Shown here in pieces: positions 1 to 8,340 of a stretch of DNA of 8,340 nt. Source of the DNA: Clostridia bacterium (lineage in GTDB: Bacteria; Bacillota_E; RBS10-35; JAJYVN01); the NCBI GenBank assembly GCA_027335545.1, contig DAHWHV010000010.1, positions 1-8,340 of the forward strand, given 5' to 3'. The notes beneath the pieces were generated by a model that was not told the origin of the DNA, did not search any database, and saw only the letters and a list, made by a program, of their open reading frames with translations. The position numbers and the translations under genes are program-made. Numbering within the stretch: position 1 is the stretch's first letter; the number at the start of each line of letters is the position of its first letter.

Positions 1-150
1 GGAGTTCTCGGACAGATCGCCGAATTCCCGCGCCACCTTGATCCGCTCGGCTACCTCACGCCGACGAACGGTCTTCAACTCCTCGAGCTCACGCTCCAGT
101 TTCTGAAGCCCGGCAGCCGTCAGCAGCACTTCGCGTTCACGCTCGGCCAT
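1..150 (-). CDS. greA: transcription elongation factor GreA, N-terminal part (cut by window edge)
   Basis: GreA enters the secondary channel of RNA polymerase and stimulates cleavage of backtracked transcripts. The 50 residues from ATG 150 read [20 protein letters not shown], then a coiled-coil stretch ([20 protein letters not shown]) and [10 protein letters not shown]. This matches the GreA N-terminal coiled coil, and GDLSEN is the tip motif with the acidic residues (Asp, Glu) that act at the polymerase active site. ATG 150 gives the usual start MAE..EVLLT; an AGAGAGG-like ribosome site lies rather far (about 14 nt) upstream. The in-frame GTG at 306 would add 52 basic residues. The C-terminal FKBP-like domain lies outside the window. 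Confidence 0.93.
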
Positions 151-306
151 GACCGCCGGTGCACCCTCTCTCTTGGCGGTGTGCTTGTTCGACTTCCGCG
201 GCTTCGGCGCTGGTCCGCCCGCGCTCTTGCGCCCCGTAGCCGCCTGGGGCCGGCTCGCGGGCGACGGGGCGCGCGACTTGGCCTTGGTGGGCGCCCGACG
301 GTGCAC
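151..306 (-). other. possible 52-residue basic N-terminal extension of GreA, or a 5' leader
   Basis: The greA frame stays open upstream of ATG 150 to GTG 306-304, which lies only about 12 nt after the predicted transcript start. The encoded residues are rich in Lys, Arg, Pro, Ala and Ser (for example [18 protein letters not shown], then [13 protein letters not shown]). In a hand count of the 51 codons after GTG, about 86 percent have G or C at position three against about 75 and 67 percent at positions two and one, which is coding-like. No good ribosome site precedes GTG 306. If untranslated, this is a leader of about 165 nt. Confidence 0.45.
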
Positions 307-324
307 GCCGCCACGCGGGGGTTG

Positions 325-354
325 ATTATAGGTTGGCCCCTCTGTCGCTGTCAA
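325..354 (-). promoter_or_regulatory. full-consensus sigma-A/sigma-70 promoter of greA
   Basis: On the minus strand TTGACA (354-349) and TATAAT (330-325) both match the consensus at 6 of 6, with an 18-bp spacer. Transcription should start near 318-316. In DNA this GC-rich, two perfect hexamers at proper spacing upstream of a gene are very unlikely by chance. It would make greA its own transcription unit, separate from the coaX operon. Confidence 0.9.
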
Positions 355-565
355 CGACGCTCCCCCCTCAGGGCCTGGACCCTCCACCCCCCGAGCCCGG
401 TGGCGCGCTGCGGGAACGCCACCAAGGCACGGGAACGGGGGGCGACCTCACCCCGGACGGGAATCTACGCACGCGGTCGCCGTCACAACACCAGCGGGGG
501 GCACGGCCGCCCGGGGGAGGCAATCCCGGCGCTCCCCACCCCATCACCGCGGTCAAAGAGCCGCC
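355..565. other. coaX-greA intergenic stretch, no gene recognised
   Basis: About 210 nt between the coaX stop and the greA promoter. It is open in several frames because of its GC content, but none resembles a protein. An inverted repeat ggggag (514-519) / ctcccc (532-537) with a 12-nt loop lies 29-52 nt after the coaX stop in the direction of transcription. It has no T-run, so it is at best a weak candidate for a 3' end signal. dusB, which sits between coaX and greA in some Clostridia, is absent. Confidence 0.5.
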
Positions 566-1447
566 TCACGGCACAGGCACCCCATCACCGACCGCCTGCC
601 CAGCACCGGCGAGTGGCCCCTCCGTCTCCCCCTCCGTCTCCCCCTCCGTCTCCCTCTCCGTCTGACCGCCTGCCGTCTGACCGCCCACTTGGCGCTCGTA
701 AATCAGGCGAAGGCCGTGCAGGGTCAGGGCGGGATCCACGTCGGTGATCGTGCGACTGGCCGGAGCCACCAAACCGCTCAGCCCGCCCGTCGCCACGACC
801 CGGCTCGCACCGCCCATTTCCGCACGCACTCGGTCCACCAAGGCATCGATCTGCCCGGCAAAGCCGAAGACGATCCCCGCCTGCACCTGCTCCGCCGTGT
901 TCTTACCCAGAACGCGGACCGGGGCCTCCAGCGGCACGCGATGCAGCAGCGCGGCGCTCTGAAAGAGCGCCTCCGCGGAAATGGCGATCCCCGGAGCGAT
1001 GACGCCACCCACGTAGCGCCCCCCGGCGGCGATGGCCTCGATCTTGGTCGCCGTTCCGCAGTCCACCACCACCACCGGGGCGCCATACAGGCGCCAGGCC
1101 GCGACACCGTCGGCGATGCGGTCTGCCCCCACCTCCCCGGGGTGGTCGACCTCCAGCCGCAGGCCCGTCTCCACCCCGGAGCCGATGGACACCAGGCGGC
1201 AGGACAGATAGGCAGAAGCCATTTGCCGCCACGACTCCCCCAGGGGCGGCACCACCGAGGCCAAGGCCAGGCCGCGCACGTCCGGCAGGCCGAACCCTCG
1301 CTGATCCAGCAGTCCGCGCAGGGTCAGGGCGAGTTCGTCGGCCGTGGCTTCACGGGCACTGGACAGACGCCAGGCGTGGAGCAGGCGTCGCTGCGCGAAG
1401 ACCGCCAGGACCGTGTGCGTATTGCCCACATCGACCGTCAGGAGCAA
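566..1447 (-). CDS. coaX: type III pantothenate kinase CoaX with a repetitive C-terminal tail
   Basis: CoaX phosphorylates pantothenate, the first step of coenzyme A synthesis; the type III form resists CoA feedback inhibition and uses a monovalent cation. From TTG 1447 the product is 293 residues. Family motifs: LLTVDVGNT (2-10, catalytic-region Asp6), GADRIAD (107-113), VVVVDCGTATK (125-135, Asp129), GGVIAPG (147-153), GKNTAEQVQAGIVFG (181-195) and ATGGLSGLV (219-227). The normal protein ends near LRLIYER (about residue 252). Here about 40 further residues follow, made of GGQTA/GGQTE and three ETEG repeats and then a Gly/Val/Pro stretch to TGA 566. The gene overlaps folK-birA by 10 nt and seems to be the last gene of this operon. 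Confidence 0.95.
   Translation of the reverse strand: MLLTVDVGNTHTVLAVFAQRRLLHAWRLSSAREATADELALTLRGLLDQRGFGLPDVRGLALASVVPPLGESWRQMASAYLSCRLVSIGSGVETGLRLEVDHPGEVGADRIADGVAAWRLYGAPVVVVDCGTATKIEAIAAGGRYVGGVIAPGIAISAEALFQSAALLHRVPLEAPVRVLGKNTAEQVQAGIVFGFAGQIDALVDRVRAEMGGASRVVATGGLSGLVAPASRTITDVDPALTLHGLRLIYERQVGGQTAGGQTERETEGETEGETEGPLAGAGQAVGDGVPVP
617..664. repeat. 12-bp tandem repeat in the coaX 3' end
   Basis: Unit cccctccgtctc on the plus strand: three perfect copies (617-628, 629-640, 641-652) and a degenerate fourth (653-664). On the minus strand it encodes ETEG repeats. The length is a multiple of three, so copy-number change would not break the coaX frame. Confidence 0.95.
658..687. repeat. 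15-bp direct repeat next to the 12-bp array
   Basis: ccgtctgaccgcctg (658-672) is followed directly by ccgtctgaccgccca (673-687), differing only in the last bases. On the minus strand it encodes GGQTA and GGQTE. Together with the 12-bp array it makes the whole added tail of CoaX repeat-derived. Confidence 0.9.
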
Positions 1448-3018
1448 CCCGCGCCGCCTCCCTCCAAATTGCTCCCACCGGGACCTGGAGAACGGGGGCC
1501 CCGGCGTCGGGTGGCGGCGGCCTGTGCCACGCCCGCCGCCTCGGCCGGGCGCAGGTGGCGCACGTCGCCGGCGAACACCGTCTGCACCGCCCCGTCTACC
1601 TCCACCTGCAGCGCCCCGTCGTCGGTCACGCCCACGGCCCGTCCGCACACGGGGATGCCGCAGACGGGATCGATGCGGACCAGGCGACCAAGAGTGCCGC
1701 AGCGGAGACGCCACGCCTGGAGGATGTGCGGCCACCCACCCGCCTGGAACTCCCGATAGAGGTGATCGAGGCGCCCGAGCACGGCCCGGCCCACCTCGGC
1801 CCGTGAGACGTGGGCGGCGACATCCCAGAGACTCGTCGCGCCAACCCCCGCCGGGGCCGTCCGGACGTTGATCCCCAGGCCCAGGACCACGAAATCCAGG
1901 CGGTCCTCGCGGCCGACCAACTCCAGCAGAATCCCACACACCTTGCCCGCGGGCAGCAGGATGTCGTTGGGCCACTTGATGGCCGTCGGCTGCGGCGTCC
2001 AGGCGTCCAGGGCCTGGCTGACGGCCAACGCGCCCAAGAGCGTCAGGCGCGCGGCCTGAGCCGGAACGACGTTCGGCCGCAGCAGCACCGACGTGTAGAG
2101 GCCCCCCGGTGGGGAGAGGAAGCCCCGCCCGCCGCGTCCCCGGCCCTCCGTCTGGGCCTCGGCAACGACGACCGTTCCCTCCGGGGCGCCCTCCAACCCG
2201 AGGCGCCGGGCCCAGCGATTCGTGGAGTCGACGCTGGCCACCACGCGGATGGGGCCGAGCCCGTGGGGCCCGTCGGGTATCAGCGCGTCGGGGCGCAGCG
2301 GCGCCACGTCCTCCGGCGCCGCCCCGCGCAGGCGGTAGCCCAGGCCCGCGTCTCCCTGAATGTCGTAGCCGGCAGCCCGGAGCCTCTGCACGTGTTTCCA
2401 AACGGCCGCGCGCGTGACGCCCAACTGCGCGGCCAAGGCCGCCCCGGACACCGCCGCCGACGCGCTCGCCTCCAGGGCGGCCAGGAGCCTGGCCCGAGTG
2501 GGGCGGGGGGAGGCGCCCCCCGCCCCCGGACCGAGACGGCCCCAGGGCCGGAGCCCCTGCCCTGCCTCCGCCGCCCGCCGCACGGCCAGGGCACGCGCCT
2601 CGCCCAGCCCCGGCAGCACGATGTCCGGCGCCACGTCGCAAAGAGGCACCAGGACGAAGGCCCGCTCATGCAGGCGCGGATGGGGTACCTCCAGGTCGCT
2701 GGTGTGAATGCGGCACTCCCCATACAGGAGGATGTCGACATCCAGGACCCGGGGACCCCAGCGGACCACCCGTTGGCGCCCAGCCGCATCTTCGATCTGG
2801 CGCACCACCGCCAACAGGCCCTCCGGCGCCAACTCCGTGTCCACGGCCACCACGCAGTTGAGAAACCAGTCCTGGTCGGTCTTCCCCTGCGGCTCTGTCT
2901 CATACACCGGCGAGACGGCCTGTGGGGGCAGTCCGGCTTCCGCCAAGCGAAGGATGGCCTGGCGGAGGTGGGACTCCCGGTCCCCCAGGTTACTGCCGAG
3001 CCCGAGGTAGACGCGCAC
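1438..3018 (-). CDS. FolK-BirA fusion: HPPK joined to biotin-protein ligase/repressor
   Basis: One uninterrupted frame of 526 codons from GTG 3018 to TGA 1438. Residues 1 to about 158 are a full 6-hydroxymethyl-7,8-dihydropterin pyrophosphokinase (FolK): GLGSNLGDR (6-14), VYETEP (38-43), FLNCVV (52-57), RWGPRVLDVDILLYG (86-100, magnesium-binding Asp93/Asp95) and PHPRLHERAFVLVPL (112-126). A short Gly/Pro linker (about 157-173) leads to a class II biotin-protein ligase (BirA): winged helix with GVTRAAVWKHVQRLRAAGY (200-218), ligase core with EGRGRGGRG (291-299), KWPND (348-352), GKVCGILLE (358-366) and GLGINV (380-385), then the small C-terminal domain ending near HLRP and a 35-residue Arg/Gly-rich tail. 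BirA attaches biotin to carboxylase subunits through biotinyl-AMP, and with this DNA-binding domain should also repress biotin genes. No ATG, GTG or TTG in frame lies between GTG 2583 (weak site) and the BirA domain, so a true fusion is the simplest reading. The 3' end overlaps coaX by 10 nt. Confidence 0.92.
   Translation of the reverse strand: MRVYLGLGSNLGDRESHLRQAILRLAEAGLPPQAVSPVYETEPQGKTDQDWFLNCVVAVDTELAPEGLLAVVRQIEDAAGRQRVVRWGPRVLDVDILLYGECRIHTSDLEVPHPRLHERAFVLVPLCDVAPDIVLPGLGEARALAVRRAAEAGQGLRPWGRLGPGAGGASPRPTRARLLAALEASASAAVSGAALAAQLGVTRAAVWKHVQRLRAAGYDIQGDAGLGYRLRGAAPEDVAPLRPDALIPDGPHGLGPIRVVASVDSTNRWARRLGLEGAPEGTVVVAEAQTEGRGRGGRGFLSPPGGLYTSVLLRPNVVPAQAARLTLLGALAVSQALDAWTPQPTAIKWPNDILLPAGKVCGILLELVGREDRLDFVVLGLGINVRTAPAGVGATSLWDVAAHVSRAEVGRAVLGRLDHLYREFQAGGWPHILQAWRLRCGTLGRLVRIDPVCGIPVCGRAVGVTDDGALQVEVDGAVQTVFAGDVRHLRPAEAAGVAQAAATRRRGPRSPGPGGSNLEGGGAGCS
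1457..1465 (-). promoter_or_regulatory. ribosome binding site that fixes the coaX start
   Basis: GGAGGGAGG on the minus strand, inside the 3' end of birA, lies 9 nt before TTG 1447-1445. The TTG gives the family-typical N-terminus LLTVDVGNT, so the site and homology agree. Confidence 0.75.
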
Positions 3019-3019
3019 C

Positions 3020-3439
3020 CTAGCGCCCTCCTCCGAGACGCGGCCGCCGGAACGGTAGGCGGACGCTCACGTCCGCTACGGGCCAGCCGATCGGCGCGTC
3101 GGGCTTATGCACGACCACGACCCCGCCCCACACCCGCGGGAAGGCTGCCAGGAGGCGGGCGGCGATCTCGCCCGCCAGGGCTTCGATCAGGTCCCGATGC
3201 GGCCCAAGGACCACCTCGGCGCTGAGGCGCGCGGCCTCCGCATAGTCCACGGTGTCCTGCAGGCGGTCCCCGGCGGCGGCCGCCCGCAGGTCCAGATCGA
3301 TCAGGAACCGCTGCGGCTGCGTGTGCTCCAGAGGCAGTACGCCGTGGCGGCCCTTTACCCGGAGCCCTCGCACCACCACGTGCCCCAACGCGGCGCCGGG
3401 CGTGGCACAACGGCGCCCGACCGGCCGGCCCCAACCCAT
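3020..3439 (-). CDS. folB: dihydroneopterin aldolase FolB
   Basis: FolB cleaves 7,8-dihydroneopterin to 6-hydroxymethyl-7,8-dihydropterin and glycolaldehyde in folate synthesis. The product is 139 residues from ATG 3439. Visible signature elements are RGLRVKGRHGVLPLE (with the catalytic-site Glu at 38), DTVDYAE (substrate-site Tyr66), LIEALAGEIAARLLAAFPRV, and HKPDAPIGWPVADVSVRL with the catalytic Lys112. The family normally begins close to VVVRGL, so about 18 residues at the N-terminus are extra. They are supported by a strong ribosome site but could be untranslated if TTG 3388 is used. The stop is 1 nt from the folK start, so FolB and the enzyme for the next step are made from coupled genes. 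No folP lies in this cluster. Confidence 0.93.
   Translation of the reverse strand: MGWGRPVGRRCATPGAALGHVVVRGLRVKGRHGVLPLEHTQPQRFLIDLDLRAAAAGDRLQDTVDYAEAARLSAEVVLGPHRDLIEALAGEIAARLLAAFPRVWGGVVVVHKPDAPIGWPVADVSVRLPFRRPRLGGGR
3026..3034 (-). promoter_or_regulatory. ribosome binding site of the folK-birA gene
   Basis: GGAGGAGGG on the minus strand, inside the last codons of folB, lies 7 nt before GTG 3018. It is an excellent match to the 16S tail and supports coupled translation from folB. Confidence 0.75.
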
Positions 3440-3444
3440 CCCGT

Positions 3445-3452
3445 CCCTCCCC
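3445..3452 (-). promoter_or_regulatory. ribosome binding site that fixes the folB start
   Basis: GGGGAGGG on the minus strand lies 5 nt before ATG 3439. This is the only strong site near the folB N-terminus and selects ATG 3439 over TTG 3388 or the GTG triplets just after it, which would give a more typical length. Confidence 0.7.
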
Positions 3453-3491
3453 ACGCTGGCGCGCCAGCGGCAGGCCCCGCGCCCCCCGGAC

Positions 3492-4670
3492 CTAGTTCGC
3501 GGTGGTGAGAACCTCCGCCCCTGCGGCGGTGACCAGCACGACGTCCGCAAGGCGCACTCCCCCCACCCCGGGGAGGTAGAGGCCGGGTTCCAGCGTGAAG
3601 ACCATCCCCGGCCGCAGGGGTTCCCCGTTGCCCTCCACCAGATAGGGCGGCTCATGGGCGTCCAGTCCGAGGCCTCGTCCGGTGCGGTGAGGGAAATGCT
3701 GCCCGAGTCCGGCCGCCGAGACGACCTGGCGCGCCGCCCGGTCCACGCCTTCCGCGGTGTTCCCCGGACGCACGGCGTTGAGCGCGGCCTGCTGGGCCGC
3801 CCGCACGACCTCCAGGGCCCGCCCCAGGGCCGGCGCGGGTTCCGCCCCGGGCACCACCACGCTCCGGGTGATGTGGGCCAGATACCCGTCGTAGCTGGCC
3901 CCCACGTCGATCCGGCAAACATCCCCCGCGCCCAATTCCCGCTCCGCGCCGGTGGCATGGGGATCCGCCCCCTGGGGGCCGGAGGCCACGCGGATGCCTG
4001 AGGGCGAGTACGCCCCGTGCGCGGCCAACACCGCGCCGCAGGCCGCAGCCACCCCCCGCTCGTGCTCGCCAGCCCCGACGGCCTGGATGCCAGCCAACAC
4101 GGCCCGCAACGCGAGCCGCGCGGCATGCCGCAACGCCACTATCTCCTGGGGCTCCTTCACCTGGCGCAGAGCGGCCACATCGGCGTCGATCGGCTGCCAG
4201 CGCGCCCGGGGGATCGCCCCTTCCACCGCGACCCGCTCGGACAGGCGCATCGCCCCGAACTCCGCGCCCAAGGGCGTGGGGCGGGCACCCAGGAAGCCCA
4301 AGGCCCGCGCCACGGCGGGCGCCGGGCCCGTCTCGTCCCGGTAGCCCACCAGCCGCAATCCTGAAATGTCCCCCAGGGCCGCGCGCAGGCCGCTGAGTTC
4401 GAAGTCGGGCGCCACGACCACTGGGGGTGCCTCCATGGGCTGCACGAACAACACCAGGCGCCCACCGGCCTCGACCCGCGCCCCGGTGAAGTAGCGGAGG
4501 CTGGCGCCTGGGACCAACACCCATGCCGCAAGGTTGCGGCGCTCGAGGCGAAGCCGCAACTCATGCGCGCGACGCCGCGCTCCAGCCGCATCGGTCGGAT
4601 CGCCGGCGTGCCCAGGCGGGCCCGCCCCCGCCACCGGCGGGCCGTCGCGGACCGCACTGTCCGTCGCCAC
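3492..4670 (-). CDS. M24 family (Xaa-Pro peptidase / creatinase fold) protein with altered metal site
   Basis: The protein is about 392 residues from GTG 4670: a non-conserved 30-residue start, a creatinase-type N-terminal domain (RRAHELRLRLERRNLAAW, LRYFTG), and a C-terminal pita-bread domain. Family landmarks are clear: SGPQGADPH, GDVCRIDVG, DGYLAHITRS, HRTGRGLGLDAHEPP, MVFTLEPGLYLPG and GVRLADVVLVT. In active aminopeptidase P or prolidase two metal ions are held by Asp, Asp, His, Glu, Glu. Here the matching residues are D255, H266, R332, E361 and A375, so three of five ligands are replaced. The two catalytic-support histidines (H238 in ADPH, H339 in DAHE) remain. The fold and ancestry are secure, but a dimetal peptidase activity is doubtful; a metal-independent hydrolase, as creatinase is within this fold, or a pseudoenzyme are alternatives. 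It sits between ftsH and folB and is probably cotranscribed with both. Confidence 0.85.
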   Translation of the reverse strand: MATDSAVRDGPPVAGAGPPGHAGDPTDAAGARRRAHELRLRLERRNLAAWVLVPGASLRYFTGARVEAGGRLVLFVQPMEAPPVVVAPDFELSGLRAALGDISGLRLVGYRDETGPAPAVARALGFLGARPTPLGAEFGAMRLSERVAVEGAIPRARWQPIDADVAALRQVKEPQEIVALRHAARLALRAVLAGIQAVGAGEHERGVAAACGAVLAAHGAYSPSGIRVASGPQGADPHATGAERELGAGDVCRIDVGASYDGYLAHITRSVVVPGAEPAPALGRALEVVRAAQQAALNAVRPGNTAEGVDRAARQVVSAAGLGQHFPHRTGRGLGLDAHEPPYLVEGNGEPLRPGMVFTLEPGLYLPGVGGVRLADVVLVTAAGAEVLTTAN

Positions 4671-4789
4671 ATCCACCCCTTCTCGCTCATACTGGGAGCC
4701 TCGTGCGGGTCGCACGCGGGCCGACGGCCCCGGCGTAGCGGAACCCCGGCGGCGGCGATGCCACCGCGCCGGGGCGCCCGTGCCGTCCA
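4671..4789 (-). other. ftsH-M24 gene spacer with three successive inverted repeats
   Basis: This 119-nt stretch holds gtgcg-ggt-cgcac (4703-4715), gggcc-gac-ggccc (4718-4730) and ccccggcg...cgccgggg (4744-4774, 15-nt loop with further possible pairing). None is followed by a T-run. The stretch is open in the frame of the M24 gene from an ATG at 4790 that overlaps the ftsH stop by one base, but the encoded residues are Arg/Pro/Gly-rich and unlike the family. I read it as untranslated leader or RNA-processing structure rather than coding. Confidence 0.5.
4676..4684 (-). promoter_or_regulatory. ribosome binding site that favours GTG 4670
   Basis: GAGAAGGGG on the minus strand ends 5 nt before GTG 4670-4668. 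The in-frame ATG at 4790 has no comparable site, and another GTG at 4676 overlaps this one. Confidence 0.65.
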
Positions 4790-6611
4790 TCAGACGGCCG
4801 CCGGCTTACCCTCCACGATCTCCGCCAACTCGCCGGAGGTGACCGTCTCCTTCTCCAGCAGGCGACGCGCGATGTCGTCCAGCTTGCCTCGATTGTCCCG
4901 CAGCAGCGTGAGCGCGCGGTCGTAGCACTCCCCCACCACGCGGCTGATCTCCCGGTCGATGTGGGAGGCCACCTCTTCTGAGAAGGACCGGTCCCGAGAC
5001 AGGTCGCGGCCCAGAAAGGGGTTGTCGATTCGGTTGCCGAAGGTCATCGGTCCGAGTTCCTGGCTCATCCCGAATTCGGTGATCATCCGTCGCACCAGCT
5101 TGGTGACGACCTCCAAGTCGTTGCTGGCCCCGGACGTGATCTCCCCGAAAATCAGGTCCTCGGCGGCCCGCCCGCCCAGCGCCTGCACCACCCGATCCAG
5201 GATCTCACGCCGCGACACCAGGTAGCGATCCTCCGTCGGCAACGAGATGGTGACCCCTAGGGCCGGCCCCTGGGGAATGATCGTCACTTTGTGGGGTGGG
5301 TCGGTGTACGGCAACAGCTTGCCCAGCAGGGCGTGCCCCGCCTCGTGGTAGGCCACCACAGGCCGCTCCTTGTCGCTGATCACCCGGCTCTTCTTCTGCG
5401 GCCCCCCCCCCGATGATGCGGTCGATGGCCTCCTCGAGTTCCTCGGTACCGACGCGCTTCTTGCGACGACGTGCGGCCAGCAGGGCGCCCTCGTTGATCA
5501 TGTTCTCCAGGTCGGCCCCAGTGAACCCGGGGGTCCGCCGCGCGAGGATGTTGAGGTCGACCGACTCCTCAAGGGGCTTGCCGCGGGTGTGCACGGCGAG
5601 GATGGCCTCTCGCCCCTTGAGGTCCGGCCGGTCGATGTTGATCTGGCGGTCGAAGCGGCCCGGCCGCAGTAGCGCCGGATCGAGGACATCCGGCCGGTTG
5701 GTGGCCGCCATGATGATGATGCCCTCGTTGGTGGAGAATCCGTCCATCTCCACCAACAACTGATTCAGTGTCTGCTCTCGCTCGTCGTGCCCCCCCCCGT
5801 ACCCGGCGCCGCGCTGCCGCCCCACCGCGTCGATCTCGTCGATGAACACGATGCAAGGGGAATTCTTCTTGGCCTGCTCAAACAGGTCCCGCACCCGCGA
5901 GGCCCCGACGCCGACGAACATCTCGACGAAGTCTGAACCGCTGATGCTGAAGAAGGGCACGCCGGCCTCTCCCGCCACGGCCTTGGCCACCAATGTCTTG
6001 CCCGTGCCGGGCTCCCCGTAGAGGAGAACGCCCTTGGGAATACGGGCTCCCAACGCCAGGTAGCGTTTGGGGTGCTTGAGGAAGTCCACGATCTCCGCGA
6101 GTTCCTCTTTGACCTCCTCGACGCCGGCGACGTCCTCGAAGGTGACCCGCTTCTTCGGGTCGTCACTGTGCAGGCGGGCCCGGCTGCGGCCGAACTGCAT
6201 CACGCGGTTCCCGCCGCCCTGGGTTTGTTGCATGATGAAGATGAAGGCGCCCACCAGCAGCACGATCGGCAGCACCGTGGTCAGGAGGGCACCATACCAG
6301 GCGTTCTGGTTGCTGGCCGCCACGCTGACGCTCACGCCCTGCTGGCGGGCCAGCTGGAGGTCGGCGATGTCGCCTTTGGGCAGGATCGCGGCATACTGGC
6401 CGCGGTTATTCGCCAAGGACCCGGTGACATGCTGACCGTCCGGGGCGACGTGGACGGAGGCGATGCCGTGGTCTTCCAGGGCGGTGACGAAGCTGCTGTA
6501 GGACAGGGTCTGGGAGTTCTGGCTATGGTTGTTGAAGACCGTCGCCAGCACGATGATCAGCAGCAGCATGACCATCCAGAAGGCCACGGTGCGAAAAGCG
6601 CTGAAGCGCAA
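4790..6611 (-). CDS. ftsH: ATP-dependent zinc metalloprotease FtsH, frame broken by one extra base
   Basis: FtsH is a membrane-anchored AAA+ protease that extracts and degrades membrane and short-lived proteins as a hexamer. Counting from TTG 6611: membrane segment about 10-26, periplasmic/extracytoplasmic domain about 35-105, second membrane segment about 107-127, AAA domain with Walker A GEPGTGKT (199-206), pore loop FVGVG (232-236), Walker B IVFIDEID (254-261), and second region of homology [19 protein letters not shown] (304-322). The protease part has the zinc site HEAGH (422-426 after frame correction) and the third ligand Asp in SNDLE (498). Corrected length is about 606 residues, normal for the family. 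As written, a run of ten G (minus strand, 5411-5402) throws the reading off: the upstream frame then ends at 5205 after about 65 unrelated residues, and the protease part is open in the next frame from upstream of GTG 5383 to TGA 4790. Nine G would join them as [17 protein letters not shown], close to the family consensus. Confidence 0.95.
5402..5411 (-). other. G10 homopolymer at the ftsH frame break
   Basis: The plus strand has ten consecutive c. Upstream codons read ATC ATC GGG GGG GGG, after which the family-conserved PQKKSR is only found in the +1 frame. The same gene has a run of nine G at 5790-5798 that keeps frame and encodes the conserved GYGGGHDE, so the simplest reading is that the true count here is also nine. 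The alternatives are a real null or phase-variable allele, or polymerase or ribosome slippage. Confidence 0.9.
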
Positions 6612-6618
6612 AACCAGT

Positions 6619-6625
6619 CCCCCTC
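6619..6625 (-). promoter_or_regulatory. ribosome binding site that fixes the ftsH start
   Basis: GAGGGGG on the minus strand lies 7 nt before TTG 6611-6609. It favours TTG over the in-frame ATG at 6674, which lies inside the predicted -35 element and would add 21 residues with no family resemblance. Confidence 0.7.
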
Positions 6626-6650
6626 GGCACCGGCCCAGACGGCTCAGGCG

Positions 6651-6679
6651 AGTGTAGCATAGCACCCAGGGCAAGACAA
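6651..6679 (-). promoter_or_regulatory. candidate sigma-A promoter of ftsH
   Basis: Read on the minus strand, TTGTCT (6679-6674, 4 of 6 consensus bases) is separated by exactly 17 bp from TACACT (6656-6651, 4 of 6), which is preceded by TG one base away, i.e. an extended -10. A transcript would begin near 6644 and give a leader of about 33 nt to the TTG start at 6611. An 8-bp palindrome, gaacgttc (6681-6688), sits immediately upstream of the -35. Confidence 0.55.
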
Positions 6680-6726
6680 CGAACGTTCCGACGCCTCTGG
6701 CGAGTGCGGGGGGGCGGCATGGCCCG

Positions 6727-8148
6727 TTACGAGCTCACGCGCCCCCAGTCCAAGATCAGGGCACGGCGGGTGTCCGGCCGGAGCGAGAATGCGCTGGTCT
6801 GCCGCACGCCCGCGATCCAGAGCACGCCGCCGTCGGCGTCCACGACCAGGCGGGGCAGCGGGCGCTCGCGCGGAGGAACGCCCGCCGCGCGGAGGAGTTC
6901 GCGCACGGCCCGCGGATGAGCCTCTCCGAACGGGACGACCACCTCGCCGGCCCGGGGGGCCCGAACCCCCAGGGGGAGGCGCACCGCCGCAGCGTCTCCG
7001 GCCGCCAGGGCGCTGTCGACGCGGACCCGATCCCACAACGCCTGGTCGGGCCAGGTGACCCAACGGGCCCGCACCACCCCCCCCGGCCCCGCCGCAGCCA
7101 CCCCCGGTACAGGGAGGGGACAGGGTGCCGTCGGCGGGGCGGGAGAGGCGACCAGTTGCAACCGGCCCGCGACGCGCACCGCGCGCCGGCCCCCGGGGAG
7201 GTCGGCCCCGGCACCAGGGGCCAGGGCCTGGAGGGCGAGGGACAGCGATCGCGACAAAGCCGGCAAACCCGTTTCCTCCTGCCACCACAGGGACAGCAGG
7301 CGGTGGCGCACGGCGACTGGTAGCAACGCACCGCCGTCGGCCCAGCGGAGCCCGACGGGGTCCCGGCGGGAGGCGAACGCCCGCTCCGCCCACTGGGTCA
7401 GCGCGGCATCATCCTCGGCCAGGTTTTCGGCGGCACGCAGCAACCCCTGCTCCAGCTCAGGGCCCAGAGCCGCGGTCAGGCGCGGCAGGACGAGCCGACG
7501 GGTGCGATTGCGCGGCCTGGAGACGTCGAGGTTGGTGGCGTCCTCCACATGGGGCAGCGCGCGCGCCCGCAGGTAGTCGCGGATATCGCCGGGGGCCGCG
7601 AACCACAGAGGCCTTACGAGCACGGTGTCGCCCGGCGCGCCCAGGGGTCGGCGCGGGCGGATCCCCGCGAGTCCACGCGCCCCCGCCCCCCGAGCCAGCC
7701 GCAGCAGGACGGTCTCCGCCCGGTCGCCGCGGTGGTGGCCCACGGCGATGACCCTGGCCGCGCACCGATCCGCCACGTCGCGCAAGAATCGGTAGCGCGC
7801 CTCCCGCGCCTTGGCTTCGGGGGAGCCCCCCCGGTCCGCGCCAGTCCCGGGGGAACGGGCGAGCGCGCCGTACTCCAGGGGCACGCCCAACCGCAGGCAC
7901 AGGCGCTGCACCGCGGCGCGGTCCGCCGCCGCGGCCTGCGGACCGCGCCACCCGTGGTCTACGTGGGCCGCCACCGGAATCGGCCGCCAGCTCATGGGTA
8001 GCTCGGTGAGGACGGCCAGCAGTGCCGTGGAGTCCGCCCCTCCCGAGACCCCGACGACGACGGGCTCACCCGGCCGCCAAAGGCGGAACTCCCGCACCGC
8101 GCGCGCCACCAGTTCCGAGAGGCGCTCCCCCGTCCCGCGTCCCTCCAA
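6727..8148 (-). CDS. tilS: tRNA(Ile)-lysidine synthetase TilS
   Basis: TilS is an N-type ATP pyrophosphatase that joins lysine to C34 of the CAU anticodon of tRNA-Ile2, changing its reading from AUG to AUA. The ATP-binding PP-loop is visible as GVSGGADS (SGGADS at residues 35-40 counted from TTG 8148). It is followed by HVDHG (62-66), RYRFL (118-122), [10 protein letters not shown] (137-146), and the family block [17 protein letters not shown] with a C-terminal TilS_C-like region. About 473 residues is normal for the long form with a C-terminal domain. The usual GHHxDDQAET motif has GDR in place of DDQ here. Start choice is weak: TTG 8148 gives a normal N-terminus about 34 residues before the PP-loop but lacks a good ribosome site. 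The frame stays open upstream to the window edge (GTG at 8265 is another option), and GTG 8109 or 8097 is possible downstream. Its stop is 115 nt before ftsH. The hpt gene that often lies between the two in Bacillota is absent. Confidence 0.93.
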
Positions 8149-8340
8149 CCCCCGGCACGCCGGGGCTGATCCACCCCACCCTCCAGTCCGCGGAGGTGGA
8201 GGCGCCGCGCCCCGCGGCACCGCTACCCTCCGCCGCGGAGGTGGAGGCGCCGCGCCTCGCGGCACCGCTACCCTCCGCCGCGGCCTCGGTGGCCCCGGTC
8301 CCGGCGGGACCGCTGGCCTGGGCCGCGGCGCGGCTGGGAG
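8066..8340 (-). CDS. possible 3' end of an upstream gene (partial, uncertain)
   Basis: One minus-strand frame is open from the window edge at 8340 to a TGA at 8066-8068. It reads as an Ala/Gly/Ser/Thr-rich tail that includes a 15-residue repeat (EGSGAARRGASTSAA, then EGSGAAGRGASTSAD). Over the first 23 codons GC at the third position is slightly the highest of the three positions, as expected for coding DNA in such a genome, whereas the tilS frame through the same repeat has its lowest GC at the third position. Against it: the frame would overlap tilS by about 80 nt, and no conserved domain is visible. A third frame stops at TAG 8268-8270 and could be the real gene end instead. In many Bacillota the gene before tilS is spoIIE or a kinase, but nothing here identifies either. 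Confidence 0.25.
   Translation of the reverse strand, partial: PSRAAAQASGPAGTGATEAAAEGSGAARRGASTSAAEGSGAAGRGASTSADWRVGWISPGVPGVGGTRDGGAPLGTGGARGAGVPPLAAG
8150..8165 (-). other. short GC hairpin directly before the tilS start
   Basis: The bases ccccgg-cacg-ccgggg form a 6-bp inverted repeat with a 4-nt loop (7 bp if a 2-nt loop is allowed). It ends 1 nt upstream of the candidate TTG start of tilS at 8148. There is no T-run after it on the minus strand, so it is not a standard intrinsic terminator. If formed in the mRNA it would occupy the place where a ribosome site for TTG 8148 should be, which is one reason that start remains uncertain. Confidence 0.45.
8188..8283. repeat. 45-bp tandem repeat, two copies plus a short remnant
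   Basis: Copy 1 is 8188-8232 and copy 2 is 8233-8277. They differ at one base (c at 8212, t at 8257). The first six bases of a third copy (ccgcgg) follow at 8278-8283. The unit length is a multiple of three, so no frame is broken. The repeat lies just before tilS and could encode a low-complexity protein tail or be untranslated. Confidence 0.95.

Follow-up and report, generated by a model that had tools for sequence, protein, structure and literature searches.

In an 8,340-nucleotide stretch of DNA from a Clostridia bacterium (GenBank assembly GCA_027335545.1, contig DAHWHV010000010.1, positions 1 to 8,340; hereafter the window), the folate enzyme FolK (HPPK) and the biotin ligase BirA appear to be encoded by a single gene. 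This raises the questions of whether the two are made as one protein, how such a gene could have come about, and whether a BirA that carries an enzyme on its DNA-binding end would still act as a repressor.

A single reading frame encodes HPPK and a class II biotin ligase

Analysis of the open reading frames of the window showed that the frame is open from the GTG at 3018 to the stop codon at 1440-1438. The gene, its parts and its immediate neighbours are as follows:

1438..3018, minus strand: folK-birA fusion gene, 526 codons, GTG start at 3018 (anti-SD -12.3 kcal/mol)
2626..3009, minus strand: HPPK (FolK) domain, residues 4-131 (Pfam PF01288, 139.6 bits, full profile)
2503..2529, minus strand: flexible linker, residues 164-172 (pLDDT <50; variable in length and sequence in relatives)
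2332..2493, minus strand: BirA winged helix HTH_11, residues 176-229 (PF08279, 49.4 bits, cut-off 25)
1867..2238, minus strand: biotin ligase catalytic domain BPL_LplA_LipB, residues 261-384 (PF03099, 69.5 bits)
1558..1647, minus strand: C-terminal BPL_C-like domain, residues 458-487 (PF02237, 20.5, just below the cut-off of 21)
3059..3376, minus strand: folB domain, directly upstream of the fusion (PF02152; junction sequence)
566..1447, minus strand: coaX (type III pantothenate kinase), directly downstream (PF03309; TTG start at 1447)

HPPK, HTH_11 and BPL_LplA_LipB each score above their own Pfam cut-off (25.7 for PF01288), and matches to PDB sequences show that likeness to solved HPPK reaches approximately residue 149. 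The original prediction that folK and birA form one protein, with complete HPPK, winged-helix and ligase domains, is borne out by the single 526-codon frame and these Pfam matches, and the short linker that it placed between FolK and the DNA-binding end corresponds to residues 164-172. The window protein also passes the curated cut-offs of TIGR01498 folK (147.2 vs 54.1) and TIGR00121 birA_ligase (residues 257-488; 177.3 vs 83.1). It does not reach those of TIGR00122 birA_repr_reg (44.3 vs 70) or of the bifunctional BirA/CoaX model NF009862 (34.3 vs 761).

The minus-strand gene order in the window is tilS, ftsH (in two frames), M24 peptidase, folB, fusion, coaX. The folB frame stops at 3020, one base ahead of GTG 3018, and the TTG 1447 of coaX falls within the final codons of the fusion (anti-SD -12.0 kcal/mol). 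In Bacillus the cluster is tilS-ftsH-coaX-folB-folK, and the arrangement at 566-8265 resembles it with birA added. A stretch of ten G breaks ftsH into two frames, 5205-6674 and 4790-5383. The AAA and M41 parts can each be recognised, and the break is either genuine or due to a slip in sequencing or assembly. No Rfam family matched in the window at gathering scores.

The fusion is shared by relatives

The ftsH frame break at a ten-G run in the same window brings up the alternative that a frameshift or lost stop codon in one assembly has joined two ordinary genes. Among the best 120 of 697 protein matches, 33, the window's own included, combine HPPK, HTH_11 and BPL; the predicted domain architecture is therefore found in 32 other listed proteins, two of which, on other contigs, are 90% identical to the window protein. 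A further 22 of these best 120 matches carry HPPK and BPL without an HTH, giving 55 fused proteins in total. When an HTH-less fusion (P0064) was used as the query, the best 120 of 5931 matches contained 96 new proteins; 27 of these were fused, one of them with an HTH.

One of 18 loci in named genome contigs, from a Bacillota MAG (L001), has the same fusion at 57% identity. In the order to which this MAG belongs (13 genomes) the HTH-bearing fusion is present in five genomes (G001, G003-G006) and an HTH-less fusion in three (G007, G009, G011); folK and an HTH-less birA are separate and adjacent in G010 and G013, no adjacent pair is seen in G008 or G012, and neither folK nor birA was found in G002. 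The sixth genome with the HTH-bearing fusion, G024, lies elsewhere in the class. None of the proteins from these six genomes exceeds approximately 60% identity to the window protein. With the same chain in six genome assemblies as well as in the 32 listed proteins, an assembly artefact is practically ruled out.

In the class, loci were sampled where matches to both halves neighbour each other. With the window counted once and L001 and L019 as one, 58 of them carry both domains on the same strand and no more than 500 bp apart; of these, 20 are fused and 38 hold separate neighbours; folK and birA are thus fused (19) or close neighbours (38) in at least 57 of 154 genomes with the window excluded, these counts being lower bounds rather than frequencies. 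In 56 of the 58 loci folB is the immediate upstream neighbour, one of the two exceptions being at a contig end. A separate birA among the relatives would have spoken against the original prediction; the nearest relatives are fused, and separate neighbours occur further out. HTH-less FolK-ligase fusions form several separate groups (L065-L068, L072, L073, L085, L090-L094, L112), and 24-60 residues separate the two domains at these loci. We conclude that the architecture is real and conserved, that it is spread through a diverse clade, and that it is part of a recurring trend.

FolK-ligase fusions arose more than once

In a 110-row tree built from both domains, the 35 rows with the HTH-bearing fusion, including the window, form one clade with an SH-aLRT of 100, three of the rows being second copies of genes already in the clade. 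A more careful tree recovers 19 rows of this clade at 100/100. The number of changes between fused and separate states is at least seven in the 110-row tree, six in the careful tree (61 rows) and seven when 27 rows are added; these counts are blind to gain versus loss, and long rows are of unsure placement. A single clade for all FolK-ligase fusions is rejected (p-AU 1.6e-103). A single origin of the HTH-bearing fusions is compatible with the data (p-AU 0.25), with the trees setting the G024 group apart. From these sequence comparisons, the fusions, HTH-bearing and HTH-less taken together, have more than one origin.

The separate folK-birA neighbours found further out suggest a route by which the fusion arose. 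Of the 38 separate pairs, 30 have a possible birA start codon ahead of the folK stop codon, and in nine of the ten pairs with an HTH-bearing BirA the candidates closest to the HTH precede that stop by 16-31 bases. Fusion seems to have been driven by gene adjacency and overlap.

The fused BirA lacks a convincing start of its own

A fused gene could still give two products, the full-length chain and a BirA started separately at or near an internal codon. In-frame GTG codons are indeed present within 45 codons of the HTH, at 2634, 2619 and 2583, and the last of these is the candidate internal start of the window gene:

2581..2583, minus strand: GTG 2583, candidate internal start, judged unused (anti-SD -5.9 kcal/mol)

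Among 163 start-type codons lying in frame inside five window ORFs, 28% equal or beat this value, whereas none reaches the -12.3 kcal/mol of GTG 3018. The valine encoded by GTG 2583 is not conserved in the 33-row fusion alignment. Across seven fusion loci, five have no internal candidate stronger than -5.9 kcal/mol; those in G006 and G003 reach -7.0 and -7.8 kcal/mol and speak for a second product, whereas the best birA start candidates in eight of the ten unfused HTH-bearing pairs range from -8.1 to -12.5 kcal/mol. The view that the fusion has no usable internal start agrees with the ordinary anti-SD of GTG 2583 and the strong signals at 3018 and 1447, and separate production of BirA appears unlikely. 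Initiation at GTG 2583 itself has no support from a ribosome-binding site.

Both halves of the protein are conserved

Alignment of 33 HTH-bearing fusions showed that W87, R90, D93, D95, H113, R115 and R119 of the HPPK domain are invariant, as are G292-R295, R298, K348-D352 and K359 of the ligase. We take these to be active-site residues, the HPPK positions comprising the catalytic Asp pair together with Arg, Trp and His residues. Judged by this conservation, the HPPK and ligase halves both look alive. In the structure model the domains are confident and residues 164-172 are unstructured; with a pTM of 0.57, the orientation of the domains is not settled by the model. Structure comparison matched the ligase half of the model to BirA structures. 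Among 56 matched solved sequences (E up to 1e-10) none spans both halves, each match being confined to one of the two. Within the six genomes that have an HTH-bearing fusion, neither domain was found a second time; at least some of these assemblies are fragmented, and for some genomes scoring covered a part of the first-look candidates.

A different concern is that the HTH is a relic and that the fused BirA no longer binds DNA. Many relatives are without the HTH, and TIGR00122 stayed below its cut-off in all three HTH-bearing fusions scored. The recognition helix argues the other way, with R203, A205, W207, K208 and R214 invariant in the same 33 fusions, as does the distribution of operator-like sites described below, and we regard the relic reading as highly improbable.

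BirA-type repeats at bioY accompany the HTH

If the winged helix is functional, a BirA-type site might be expected at a biotin gene. An inverted repeat with half-sites GTCAACC and GGTTGAC or GGTTTAC, separated by 15-17 bases, was found upstream of bioY in G003-G006 and G002. These repeats score 14/16 against a BirA consensus; six members of the order without an HTH on the ligase score 9-11 on the same scale. The exact pattern occurs in five of the 13 order genomes, each time at bioY, with one extra site in G004 inside a coding frame that by eye is release-factor-like. A reversed control pattern likewise matched in five of the 13, so that it is the position at bioY, and not the number of matches, that constitutes the evidence. 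A single contig of G024 carries all three elements, fusion, repeat and bioY, with 101 bp between the repeat and the BioY domain downstream of it:

1501-1529 of L155 (G024:C255): inverted repeat at bioY

Class-wide, the exact pattern is present in 57 of 154 genomes, and in 21 it is found no more than 500 bp ahead of bioY. Association with the HTH was scored in 72 genomes that have bioY and a classified ligase locus, a further five genomes with a bioY site being left unclassified. The repeat precedes bioY in all five HTH-bearing fusion genomes that have bioY, in 11 of 30 genomes with an unfused HTH-bearing BirA, and in none of 37 HTH-less genomes, ten of which are fused (Fisher p 1e-6, which is optimistic since the genomes are related). 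The remaining 19 unfused HTH-bearing genomes may use other sites or none. G001 has the fusion, yet bioY and the repeat were both not found there; G002 has the repeat at bioY although BirA was not found in that genome. Within the window itself no repeat was found at up to two mismatches with a 16-base gap.

According to PMC5343134, only a subset of BirA proteins has a DNA-binding domain, and in alpha- and betaproteobacteria loss of this domain accompanies apparent loss of the BirA regulon. The absence of bioY repeats from all 37 HTH-less genomes fits that statement.

Above its cut-off, bioB was detected in none of 12 genomes (weak matches below the cut-off occur in ten), and it was not found in the six HTH-bearing-fusion genomes; biotin uptake is therefore the expected target. 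Dihydropteroate synthase is above its cut-off in 11 of the 12. By these profile matches the hosts look like folate-making biotin scavengers, and the likely target of the fused BirA is biotin uptake through bioY. The BirA half is predicted to repress still, and probably does so.

A probable tethered enzyme with an intact biotin switch

The original prediction had suggested that FolK could hinder or tune BirA dimerisation or operator binding. If the pathways were coupled in this way, BirA dimerisation or operator affinity would change with the binding of pterin or ATP to HPPK, and folate status would set biotin uptake. The position of HPPK directly on the DNA-binding end, behind a short linker, and the recurrence of the fusion in the class would suit this. 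However, the linker is flexible and variable, and the HTH is absent from 22 of the 55 listed fused proteins; since the fusion is common without the HTH, regulation cannot explain it in general. The bioY repeats of the fused lineages also follow the same pattern as those of the unfused HTH-bearing genomes (11 of 30), which does not favour hindrance or tuning. Finally, no exact site lies at a folate gene in the six HTH-bearing-fusion genomes (G001, G003-G006, G024), which likewise weighs against a FolK-linked regulation of BirA. We consider the coupling distinctly unlikely, and a two-vitamin sensor, with HPPK as allosteric input reporting the state of the folate pathway (pterin, ATP) alongside biotin, would be a long shot. 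Folate genes as targets of the fused BirA were likewise rejected, the exact pattern in these six genomes occurring only at bioY and at the in-frame site of G004.

The simplest reading is a tethered enzyme pair with the biotin switch intact. We think it quite probable, judging from sequence, that the chain is trifunctional, uniting a tethered HPPK, a ligase and an intact bioY repressor joined from operon neighbours. The N-terminal HPPK would supply 6-hydroxymethyl-dihydropterin diphosphate for folate and the C-terminal ligase would biotinylate carrier domains, while the BirA half would dimerise with biotinoyl-AMP bound and repress bioY through the central winged helix. The neighbouring, overlapping folK and birA of a folB-folK-birA(-coaX) operon would have been joined in frame, leaving HPPK on a flexible linker and sharing with BirA mainly translation and stoichiometry. 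The observed basis of this reading is the frame, the domains and their conservation, the clade, the neighbouring genes and the bioY repeats of the relatives. From these we infer that both enzymes are active, that the BirA half dimerises and represses, how the fusion came about, and that the window's own genome has the same bioY site.

Comparison with known fusions

Like class II BirA (E. coli 1bia/2ewn, S. aureus BPL 3rir), the fusion has a winged helix, a ligase and a C-terminal domain, shares the ligase motifs GRGR..R and KWPND and the invariant K359, and has relatives with an inverted repeat at a biotin gene; unlike BirA, it bears a complete HPPK on its N-terminus. The bifunctional BirA/CoaX proteins (NF009862) also pair a biotin ligase with an enzyme of another vitamin pathway, but there the partner is CoaX rather than FolK; in the window coaX is the next gene downstream. 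HTH-less HPPK-BPL fusions (P0035, P0043, P0064, P0076 and others) likewise place FolK N-terminal to the ligase but have no winged helix, and the bioY repeat is absent from all ten such genomes with bioY. The claim that FolK-BirA is no standard architecture held within the sources covered: no FolK/BirA fusion model was among the NCBIfam matches of five fused proteins, and a limited literature search by title and abstract returned no publication on such a fusion.

The fusion is therefore of interest as a conserved, repeatedly evolved joining of enzymes from two different vitamin pathways, widely kept in a Bacillota group known through metagenomes. Here BirA bears a globular enzyme at its DNA-binding end, with a BirA-type site still present at bioY in relatives, which offers a natural experiment on the N-terminal load that the BirA switch can bear. 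Annotation calls for caution: where such chains carry a name in the sources, it is either BirA or FolK, and the other half is lost.

HPPK is a module of multidomain chains elsewhere too, as in FolB-FolK (2cg8) and HPPK-DHPS (7mpy, 2bmb, 4pzv, 3mcm), where the partners are folate enzymes, whereas that of the window fusion belongs to biotin metabolism. HPPK was also seen in many other chains (P0152, P0159, P0166, P0179, P0207 and others), with unusual partner domains that include PF04191, PF14681, PF13622, PF01636 and PF10728, and FolK therefore seems promiscuous as a fusion partner.
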